From Actinobacteria bacterium Ga0077541 (GTDB lineage Bacteria > Actinomycetota > Thermoleophilia > Miltoncostaeales > Miltoncostaeaceae): a stretch of 43,772 bases of DNA. The notes under the pieces are model-generated. The model was given only the letters and a program-made list of their open reading frames with translations. It was not told where the DNA came from and did no database searches. Position 1 is the stretch's first letter. The number at the start of each line of letters is the position of its first letter. This document shows positions 7,582 to 43,772 of this stretch, piece by piece. The stretch covers positions 1 through 43,772 of the forward strand of contig LNEQ01000249.1 in NCBI GenBank assembly GCA_001464995.1, in the 5' to 3' direction. The position numbers and the translations under genes are program-made.

Positions 7582-7749
7582 ACTCAGCCTGAATCCGTCG
7601 TATCTCGCGACGCGGATGCGCGAAATCGCACACGTGATGCGGGATTCGGCGCGACCGCAGGGATCACCCTTACGATGCGACGCCGAATCCCACCTGACGC
7701 GGCGCTTTCACGCCCCGCATCCGTGATCTCCAACGGACTCAGGCTCAGC
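7582..7749 (+). repeat. Copy 1 of a dispersed ~168-bp long-hairpin (imperfect palindrome) repeat
   Basis: Near-symmetric arms with TIR-like ends (ACTCAGCCTGAATCCGTCG / CAACGGACTCAGGCTCAGC); 11-bp perfect core stem GGGATTCGGCG...CGCCGAATCCC with 29-nt loop at 7641-7691; second copy at 35385-35551. Confidence 0.85.
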
Positions 7750-7783
7750 CCGGATCCGTCGATCTCCCGGCGCGAGCCAGGGT

Positions 7784-8260
7784 TCAGGGTGAGGCGGTGA
7801 GGCTCCGGAGGTCGCCGACGCTCGAGGCGTAACGGCCCGCGGCGCCGGCCATGCCGGCCGGGTCGCCCGCGGCCGCCGCGTCGGCGACGAGGCTCATCTC
7901 GGCGATGACGCCGTCCAGGGCGGCCGACGCGCGCTCGCGCTGGGCCTCGAGGCGGAGGTCCTCGAGGCGCTGCGCCTCGATGCGCCCCGCGATCGCCACC
8001 GTGCGGTCGAGGGCGTCCTCGAGCCGGGGGGCCAGGGCGAGCATCGCCGGACGGCGCGGGGTGGGGGCGAGCTCCGCGAGGACCTCCGAGAAGTCGTTCA
8101 CGGCGGAGACCGCGGCCGAGGTGTCGGCCAGGTAGCGCTGCGGCGAGACCTGCGCGCCCTCGGTGAGCGGCGTCGTGGAGGCGTCGAGCGAGCCGCCGCC
8201 GCATCCGGCGGCCGCGGCGGCCACGAGGGCCACGAGGCCGAGGGTCAGGAGGCGGCGGAT
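7784..8260 (-). CDS. Hypothetical lipoprotein (start uncertain: ATC at 8260 or GTG at 8233)
   Basis: RRLLTLGLVALVAAAAAGCGGGSLDAS lipobox; helical body similar in style to the upstream lipoprotein. Confidence 0.65.
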   Translation of the reverse strand: MRRLLTLGLVALVAAAAAGCGGGSLDASTTPLTEGAQVSPQRYLADTSAAVSAVNDFSEVLAELAPTPRRPAMLALAPRLEDALDRTVAIAGRIEAQRLEDLRLEAQRERASAALDGVIAEMSLVADAAAAGDPAGMAGAAGRYASSVGDLRSLTASP

Positions 8261-35084: not shown

Positions 35085-35375
35085 TCAGTCCCGGGAGCGC
35101 ACGACCGTCCAGGGTTCGATCCGCCGCGCGGTGACCAGCCCCGCGGCGACGTAGGGGTCCCCGTCGGCGTAGCGGGCGATCTCGTCCTCGGCCACGTCGC
35201 CGAAGACGAAGAGCGCGCCGGTGGGCGGATCGCCGAGGGCGCCGGCCATCAGCATCGTCCCGGCGGCGATCCACTCGTCGATCCGGGCCAGGTGGGCCTC
35301 GCGGTACGCGCCCCGGCGCTCGAGGATGTCGGCCACGTAGTCGTAGACCAGGACGGAGCGGGGTCCGGTGGGCAT
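35085..35375 (-). CDS. YciI-like protein
   Basis: RGAYREAHLARIDEWIAAGTMLMAGALGDPPTGALFVF...ARYADGDPYVAAGLV. Confidence 0.85.
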   Translation of the reverse strand: MPTGPRSVLVYDYVADILERRGAYREAHLARIDEWIAAGTMLMAGALGDPPTGALFVFGDVAEDEIARYADGDPYVAAGLVTARRIEPWTVVRSRD

Positions 35376-35384
35376 CGCGCTCAG

Positions 35385-35551
35385 GCTCAGCCTCAACCCG
35401 TCGCAGATCGTGGATGTGGAGGACGAAAGCGCCGCGTGAGGGGGGATTCGGCGTCACACCCGCAGGGTGACCCCTCGGGGCGCGCCGAATCCCGCCTCAC
35501 GTATGCGATTTCGTTCATCCGCGCCCCGAGATCGACGGATTCAGGCTCAGC
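35385..35551 (-). repeat. Copy 2 of the dispersed ~168-bp long-hairpin repeat (inverted relative to copy 1)
   Basis: Minus strand AGCCTGAATCCGTCGATCTCGGGGCGCGGATGAACGAAATCGCATACGTGAGGCGGGATTCGGCG... matches copy 1 plus strand; core 35443-35493. Confidence 0.85.
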
Positions 35552-37319
35552 GCTGGCGGGTGAGCCGGAGGGTGTAGGGACCGCCGCCGCGGCGGGCGAA
35601 CACGTCGACGTAGTACACGCCCGACCGCTTCGCGCGGTGGACGATGACGCCGGTCGGACGGGTTCCGGGGCGGTAGTCGATCAGGTGCCGCTCGAGGTTG
35701 CCGTTCTCGGTGCCCACCGTGCGCGTACCCGGATCCCAGAGGTAGAGGTCGAGGCGCGGCCTGCCGTGCGTGAGGACCACGCGCAGGCGCTCGCCGCGCT
35801 TCAGCCGGACGGCGTAGACGTCCTCGGAGTCCTCGAACTGGTCGGCGGTCGCCCGTATCACCAGGGGCCGCCCGGCCTCGTTGAGGCGCGTGGTCCCGGC
35901 GAGCCACTTGATGTCGTCGTTCACCTCGCCGACGTCGTCCTCGGGGCCCTGCAGCGAGACGGCCGCCCGGGGGTTGACGACGCCGAAGCCGTTGGTGTTG
36001 TCGCGGCCGGTGGTGCCGATGTCGGTGGCCGTGTTCTTGAGGTGGCGCGCCAGCTGGTACGGGCTGAGGGCGCCCCCGTTGGCCGCCTGCACCAGGGCGG
36101 CGACACCCGAGACGTAGGGCGCCGCCATCGAGGTGCCGTCCTTCAGGGCGTACCCGGGCGCGACCACGCGCTCGTTCACCCTCCGCGGCACGCTCGAGAG
36201 GACGTTGACGCCCGGGGCGATGACGTCGACGGTGCGGTTGTGGTTGGAGAAGGTCGCGGCGGCGAACGGCCGCGGGCAGTCGAAGGTCACGATCCCGTCG
36301 CACTGCGCGCCCACGCCGAGGACGCGGCGGTAGCCGGCCGGGAAGTTGAGGGCGTTGACGTCCTGGCCCTGGTTGCCGACCGACGCGACGATCAGGGCCC
36401 CGCGCGCGGTGGCCCAGAAGACGGTGTCCTGGAACGCCTGGGAGTAGCCCGGGCCCCCGGCCGAGATGTTGATCACCTTGGCGCCGTTGAGGACCGCGTG
36501 GCGGATGCCCCGCATCATGGTCTCGTCGGTGCTGCTGCCGTCGCGGTCGGCGATCTGCACCGGGATGACGGACGCGGCCCCCTGCACGGCGGGCGCGACG
36601 CCGACCACCCCGACCCCGTTGGCCGGCGCGGCGGCGATCCCGGCCACGTGTGTGCCGTGCCCCGAGATCCCGTGGTCGCCGGCGTCGGCGTCGCCCCGGA
36701 GGGTGCTGCGCGGGGCGATGAGGGGGCTGGCCGGTCCGCCCCACTCCTCGTGGCCCGAGTCGATGCCGCTGTCGAGGACCGCGATCGCGGGCCGCGGCCC
36801 GAGGGTGATCAGATCGGCGCCCCAGGTGGACCCCGCGAGGAGCCCCCACTGCGACGACGGGGTGAAGAAGGGGTCCGTGACCGGCGGCGCGGCGCCGGGG
36901 GGTGAGGGCGGCGCGGGGCGGTCGGCGGTGCGCCGGGTCAGCGACCACTCGGCGCCCGCGACCTGTGCCCGGGCCAGGACGCGTGCGCGCGCGCCGGCCG
37001 GGGCTGACGGGGAGAGGCCCCAGACGCCGGCCTCGGGCACGACGGGGGCCAGCTCGCCGAGCCCCGCCAGACGCGCCTCGGCGGCCGCCCGCCGGGGCGC
37101 GTCGCTGAAGGTGACCAGCAGGCGCGAGGCCCCGGGGAGCGTGCGCGCGAACTCGACGCGCGGCGCGGCGCCGGCGGCGGACGGCGCCCCGGGAGCGGGC
37201 TTCTGGGCGCCGGGCGGCACGGTCGCGGTGGCGGTGGCGGTCGCGGCCGTGGCGCCCCCCAGGACGGCGAGGGTGACGGCGAGGGCCGCGGTGCGGTGGC
37301 TGGTGGGGTTCCTAGACAT
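35547..37319 (-). CDS. Secreted S8-family (subtilisin-like) serine peptidase
   Basis: Signal peptide; AVLDSGIDSGHEEWGG, GHGTHVAGIAAAPANG, KDGTSMAAPYVSGVAALV. Confidence 0.95.
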   Translation of the reverse strand: MSRNPTSHRTAALAVTLAVLGGATAATATATATVPPGAQKPAPGAPSAAGAAPRVEFARTLPGASRLLVTFSDAPRRAAAEARLAGLGELAPVVPEAGVWGLSPSAPAGARARVLARAQVAGAEWSLTRRTADRPAPPSPPGAAPPVTDPFFTPSSQWGLLAGSTWGADLITLGPRPAIAVLDSGIDSGHEEWGGPASPLIAPRSTLRGDADAGDHGISGHGTHVAGIAAAPANGVGVVGVAPAVQGAASVIPVQIADRDGSSTDETMMRGIRHAVLNGAKVINISAGGPGYSQAFQDTVFWATARGALIVASVGNQGQDVNALNFPAGYRRVLGVGAQCDGIVTFDCPRPFAAATFSNHNRTVDVIAPGVNVLSSVPRRVNERVVAPGYALKDGTSMAAPYVSGVAALVQAANGGALSPYQLARHLKNTATDIGTTGRDNTNGFGVVNPRAAVSLQGPEDDVGEVNDDIKWLAGTTRLNEAGRPLVIRATADQFEDSEDVYAVRLKRGERLRVVLTHGRPRLDLYLWDPGTRTVGTENGNLERHLIDYRPGTRPTGVIVHRAKRSGVYYVDVFARRGGGPYTLRLTRQR

Positions 37320-43155: not shown

Positions 43156-43255
43156 GAGCAGGTGGCGCCACGTGATCGTTCAGTGCGGTCGGACGGTTCC
43201 GTGCTCGGGACGTGCGTCGACGCACTGATCTCCCACTTGCGGGGAGATCAGGGCG

Positions 43256-43283
43256 GCAAATCACCCTTAGCAGGGCGATTTGC
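43256..43283. terminator. Hairpin GCAAATCACCCT-TAGC-AGGGCGATTTGC
   Basis: 12-bp stem with one mismatch, beside the left inverted arm; T-rich side supports minus-strand termination. Confidence 0.5.
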
Positions 43284-43618
43284 ACCCAGCAGGCACCGGC
43301 TTGCGCCGGGGATGGCCTCTGGAACACCCAGACGCAAGCGCACCCAGGGACGGCCACTCGGGACGATCACGTCCGCGAGAGCGGACGGTTGGTGGGCGCA
43401 GCGCCTGCCTCCGTCCCCTGCCGACCCCTGCGCGATGGCAGACGATCCGAAGGGCAAGGGCGCCCTGTCGGGTCTCATGGCTCGCAGCGTGCGCTACCGG
43501 GGCTGTGCCCGGAGCTGCGTTGGTGAAGGGTGAGGCCTGAGACCTGGGTTTCGTCTGCGGACCACCGTGATTGGTGTACCGCGACGTATCCCGGGCGACA
43601 GCCCGGAGGAGCGGAATC

Positions 43619-43645
43619 AAAAGGGCCCCGACGAGGGGCCCTTTT
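43619..43645. terminator. Intrinsic terminator hairpin AAAAGGGCCCC-GACGA-GGGGCCCTTTT
   Basis: Perfect 11-bp stem with A/T tracts on both sides, beside the right inverted arm. Confidence 0.8.
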
Positions 43646-43772
43646 GTCGCCCTGATCTCCCCGGTAGTGGGAGATCAGTGCGTCGACGCACGTCCTGCGC
43701 ACGGGACCGTCCGACCGCGCAGACGATCACGTGGCGCCAACCGCTCTGGAGAAGCGCTCCGTGGGACGCCCT

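Follow-up and report, generated by a model that had tools for sequence, protein, structure and literature searches.

A dispersed palindromic repeat of 158 bp, found in one bacterial genus, is probably a non-autonomous DNA transposon (MITE) that targets the sequence CTNAG and would be mobilized in trans by a transposase of the IS5 type. Its assignment as a MITE, one of the readings in the original prediction, rests on its copy number, its terminal inverted repeats, the direct duplication of its target and the existence of empty sites. Judged from sequence, the family is new but ordinary in kind; its target is IS5/IS1031-like, and its distribution as far as searched is one genus. The window, a stretch of 43,772 nucleotides with a GC content of 75%, belongs as contig C249 to a draft genome of 3.16 Mb in 307 contigs (termed G000). 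Both palindromes that had been predicted in it are present, flanked by CTCAG on either side at 7583–7748 (copy 1) and 35386–35550 (copy 2). Each is a palindrome of ∼165 bp; the two share 80% identity and lie in opposite orientations.

Table 1. Positions in the window of the two repeat copies, their target-site duplications and the adjoining features.
Feature	Position	Strand	Basis or remark
Copy 1, element proper (158 bp), ends GCCTGAATCC...GGACTCAGGC	7587..7744	+	Sequence, alignment of copies
Copy 1, left target-site duplication TCA	7584..7586	.	Within CTCAG 7583-7587
Copy 1, right target-site duplication TCA	7745..7747	.	Within CTCAG 7744-7748; common to copy 1 and the small tandem element
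Second element, tandem, internally deleted, decayed	7748..7783	+	Left end GCCCGGATCCGTCGATCTC matches family; right end eroded
Outer TNA (TCA) of the small element; also the TGA stop codon of a gene that ends at 7784	7784..7786	-	
Copy 2, element proper (157 bp)	35390..35546	-	Opposite orientation to copy 1
Copy 2, left target-site duplication TCA	35387..35389	.	CTCAG 35386-35390
Copy 2, right target-site duplication TCA, serving as the TGA stop of the subtilase (S8) gene	35547..35549	-	CTCAG 35546-35550
Subtilase-family protease gene, stop codon is the duplicated target	35547..37319	-	Pfam PF00082
YciI-like gene, downstream of the protease	35085..35375	-	PF03795

The repeat belongs to a dispersed family, as had been predicted, with many further copies in the same genome and some in congeners. 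A search of G000 with copy 1 reveals nine long copies as well as fragments. When as many as two mismatches are allowed, the end motif CTNAGCCTGAATCCG occurs at 49 places compared with six for the reversed control, and pairing of these places gives 14 closed pairs of 43–166 bp. With truncated or diverged copies counted, the total in G000 is ∼18. Among the congeners, G001 has three full copies, G002 has short copies and G003 has none. Over 399 genomes across the class (128 genera), with at most two candidates scored per genome, matches are found in the window's own genus only. A degenerate end-pattern scan of a wider genome contig collection, which near genomes may fall outside of, yielded no loci.

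The full element of 158 bp has no capacity to encode a transposase. In an oriented alignment, nearly all copies have the ends GCCTGAATCC...GGATTCAGGC, and the predicted asymmetry between arms and fixed polarity are retained. Internal deletions have shortened many copies, to as little as 43 bp, with both ends kept, and these shorter derivatives may have arisen by progressive internal deletion of the palindrome. The derivatives of 43–60 bp do not contain the conserved centre, and so argue that mobility depends on the ends. A minimal hairpin of ∼31 bp with family-like ends (CTCAGCGTGAATCC...) is present in G000 (C89:1574–1604) and in G002 (C93:1461–1491), apparently at one site in both species, and represents an insertion that predates their split or a remnant. 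A diverged relative in G000 (C43:9115–9268), 71% identical, has other palindromic ends (GAGCCCGGGCGCG) and is perhaps a separate subfamily.

Elements are flanked by direct repeats that vary from site to site (CTGAG/CTGAG, CTCAG/CTCAG and CTACG/CTACG), with TNA duplications of TGA/TGA, TCA/TCA and TAC/TAC. Of 16 pairs, 12 have identical 5-mers as flanks, 14 have the inner TNA as a direct repeat and one has it inverted. Because G is the first and C the last base of the element, the duplication can be read as 3 bp (TNA within C-TNA-G) or as up to 5 bp; the sequence of one G001 copy, G001a, which has A instead of the left C, favours 3 bp. The ends had been described as 19-bp terminal repeats. Terminal inverted repeats are indeed present, but their length was overstated because the target duplication had been counted in. 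Judged from sequence, the ∼158-bp non-coding palindrome inserts into C-TNA-G and duplicates the 3-bp TNA.

Empty sites are present in the sister species G002, the comparison with relatives that the original prediction had looked to. At the copy 2 site, G002 is ∼90% identical on both flanks and has no element; G001 and G003 also have none. The joined flanks of six further loci (C246, C281, C290, C244, C153 and C236) match insertion-free loci of G002, and conversely a site occupied in G002 (C195) is empty in G000. A single clean CTNAG is found at the empty C246, C281 and G002 C195 sites, and these cleanest cases support insertion rather than deletion. Copy 1, together with the adjoining 36-bp element, is absent from G001 and G003. 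The GTCAGG sequence around the stop codon at 7784..7786 is conserved in both of these genomes, and copy 1 lies ∼40 bp from that stop because the smaller, decayed element occupies it. In G002 the start of the YciI-like gene overlaps the stop codon of the protease gene (TGATG) and in G000 the two are ∼170 bp apart; thus, the insertion of copy 2 split a tight gene pair. Beside copy 2, at 35377–35389, CTCAGGCTCAG has an additional CTCAG-like unit that is missing in G002 and may be a trace left by a previous insertion.

Ten of 17 copies, among them copy 2, have a duplicated TNA that is the exact stop codon of an adjacent called gene, and in these ten the gene is on the strand that the TNA predicts; the genes were called by a simple codon-usage caller on element-removed loci, and the calls are approximate, as is the null that inherits them. 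Outside elements, 301 kb of G000 contain CTNAG 162 times in coding sequence, 38 times as a stop codon and 31 times in non-coding sequence, i.e. 38 of the 69 non-disruptive sites (55%) are stop codons. There is no excess of stop-codon insertions over this neutral expectation (10/17, p 0.48). The frequent location at stop codons is thus explained by CTNAG targeting and the loss of insertions that break genes. In this GC-rich genome the non-disruptive CTNAG sites are mostly stop codons (CTGAG) or intergenic, so survivors are often found exactly on stops. With the stop codon present on both sides, the protein remains unchanged and the large hairpin forms the start of the 3′ untranslated region. 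One copy (C145) lies inside a gene, within its final ten codons, and the gene gains a new stop from the element end (TAC GCC TGA). A precedent for MITEs or insertion sequences that target stop codons was not found in the literature searched, mostly outside subscription journals.

This raises the question of whether the element family and the similar IS5 group described below are adapted to stop codons, with the hairpin as a portable 3′ untranslated region that changes expression. C-TNA-G would be a safe target, since the stop is restored by the 3-bp duplication; a further stop in frame would come from the consensus end GCCTGA (TNA GCC TGA), and the hairpin, which is conserved and covaries, would alter expression of the host gene. 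Such an adaptation is unlikely.

At the structural level, each copy folds as one long hairpin that is much more stable than dinucleotide shuffles, −85.8 versus −60.2 kcal/mol for copy 1 (z −6.5) and −115.4 versus −72.5 kcal/mol for copy 2 (z −9.2). The palindromes are real, as the original prediction had it. The 29-nt loop that had been reported is itself palindromic and pairs further, down to a loop of 4 nt. The central hairpin is well conserved. In an alignment of ten long copies, two-sided changes occur at 12 of 50 stem pairs. The covariation score is 0.145 compared with 0.075 for shuffled alignments, none of 500 shuffles reaches 0.145 and slid partners give at most 0.075, in a test where the structure was derived from the same alignment and where related sequences can surpass such shuffles without any structure. 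The paired stem changes are a hint of constraint on structure beyond mobility. The covariation could be selection on the hairpin, as RNA or DNA, or repair between the arms of the palindrome.

Perhaps, then, the hairpin is kept as a transcript stabilizer or terminator, a portable 3′ untranslated RNA element whose mobility is incidental. The ten copies that start directly at a stop codon, the very stable fold, the conserved central hairpin and the compensatory changes all agree with this. However, the share of stop codons is that of the neutral expectation, sites are empty in the sister species, and the 43–60 bp derivatives dispense with the conserved centre while both ends are kept. Rfam also gives no match above the gathering threshold, and at a permissive threshold matches are at chance level only; the original prediction depended on there being no known Rfam family. 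On balance this explanation is improbable. The original suggestion of a conserved 3′ untranslated RNA holds as to location, with ∼60% of copies starting at a stop codon, a consequence of the target site; that the RNA has a conserved function is doubtful.

As for the means by which the MITE is mobilized, movement in trans would depend on a DDE transposase of the IS5 family (IS1031/ISL2-like), of the type present in congeners and in Chloroflexi. The IS1031 subgroup of IS5 reportedly prefers TNA targets and makes 3-bp repeats (PMC12016507). G001 and G003 have IS5-family transposases (NCBIfam NF033580; Pfam PF13340 and PF01609), and the elements have the ends GGGCCTGTGTATGAACT / CGGTCTGTGTATGAACT. 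In G003 they are situated in C-TNA-G, and the four copies analysed there lie on a TGA that closes a frame whose third-position GC, at 96–100%, resembles that of coding sequence; the G001 copy lacks a clean duplication. Six cases with TNA duplications occur among Chloroflexi relatives of 55–64% identity, their ends being for instance GAGCCTGTGAATGAAC or GGCCCTGTGAACGAAA; at least two of the six are on stop codons (L177 and L180). The IS5 ends in the genus and in Chloroflexi read GRGCCTGTG, and the likeness to the MITE is confined to the G(..)CCTG start.

The original prediction had envisaged a transposase with matching ends. None of the four genomes G000–G003, two of which are fragmented drafts, yielded an autonomous element that has the MITE ends. 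The IS5 elements of G001 and G003 do not match the MITE ends, the G000 draft yielded no IS5 transposase, and end pairing up to 4 kb, aimed at an autonomous element, gave short pairs only. With a likeness limited to the start of the ends, and no element that has the exact ends, IS5-type mobilization is inferred. The absent partner and the partial match of the ends are also what would be expected if a different DDE transposase family mobilizes the element and the IS5 likeness is a coincidence. This is unlikely, as C-TNA-G with a 3-bp TNA duplication is common to the congeneric and Chloroflexi IS5 elements, and IS1031-type IS5 elements are likewise reported to use TNA and to give 3-bp repeats (PMC12016507).

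Two of the IS5 elements have a further property. The element at L184 2035–4380 in G003 and that at L183 in G001 are 2.34-kb IS5-family DDE elements that also carry a TnpB gene; the best NCBIfam match of the L183 TnpB is IS607-type TnpB, and L184 has TGA/TGA in C-TNA-G as flanks. The combination of an IS5 element and an RNA-guided nuclease gene seemed unusual, and a brief literature search gave no match for it. G003 also has internally deleted derivatives of the TnpB-bearing element, at L116 1207–2295, where the N-terminal part of the transposase is fused in frame to the C-terminal part of TnpB, and at L186 2635–3128 (∼490 bp).

Dispersed extragenic palindromes close to gene 3′ ends are typical of REPs, and a REP/BIME-like unit, moved by a RAYT (Y1) transposase, had been suggested. 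The repeat shares this location, but its flanks are direct 3-bp duplications that vary by site (TGA, TCA, TAC) and not a fixed one-sided tetranucleotide, and together with the terminal inverted repeats they point to a DDE mechanism, which makes a REP origin highly improbable. The dispersed family, the direct TNA repeats and the empty sister sites speak against a chance palindrome or a terminator.

Among known elements, the MITE resembles the IS1031/ISL2-like IS5 elements (e.g. ISLrh, PMC12016507; transpos_IS5_3 of G001/G003 and Chloroflexi) in the TNA target and 3-bp duplication. With those of G001/G003 and Chloroflexi it also shares the C-TNA-G context, ends starting with G..CCTG and copies on stop codons. 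The IS5 elements encode a transposase and are about 1.2–2.3 kb, some with an added TnpB, whereas the MITE is 158 bp, non-coding and has an end sequence of its own. RUP, NEMIS/Correia and ERIC elements (PMC2229807) are likewise <200 bp, palindromic and intergenic, with terminal inverted repeats, target duplications and long stem-loops, and are presumably mobilized in trans. Most of these have TA ends and are AT-rich (PMC2229807); the present MITE is GC-rich and uses TNA in CTNAG, a distinction drawn from descriptions only. The YPAL/RU-2 repeat of Yersinia (∼168 bp; PMC2229807) is also an intergenic palindrome of similar length and is not AT-rich, but is described as having internal inverted repeats, whereas the MITE has terminal repeats and clear target duplications.

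The family provides a clear, countable case in which a five-letter transposase target leaves the stop codon as the most frequent harmless insertion site in a genome that is compact and GC-rich. Insertions put large hairpins on the 3′ ends of genes and can split overlapping stop/start pairs, as with copy 2. Before a hairpin directly after a stop codon is read as a terminator or a conserved 3′ untranslated RNA, relatives should be checked for empty sites. The target signature and end sequence are now at hand for tracing the missing IS5-type partner.

The window has a second dispersed repeat, at 43175–43285 and 43643–43727, in inverted orientation and 90% complementary over 81 nt. It has no above-threshold Rfam match. 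A terminator-like hairpin follows each copy. There are 11 matches in G000 and seven in G002, several at contig ends, and some span only query positions 34–86 or 1–54.
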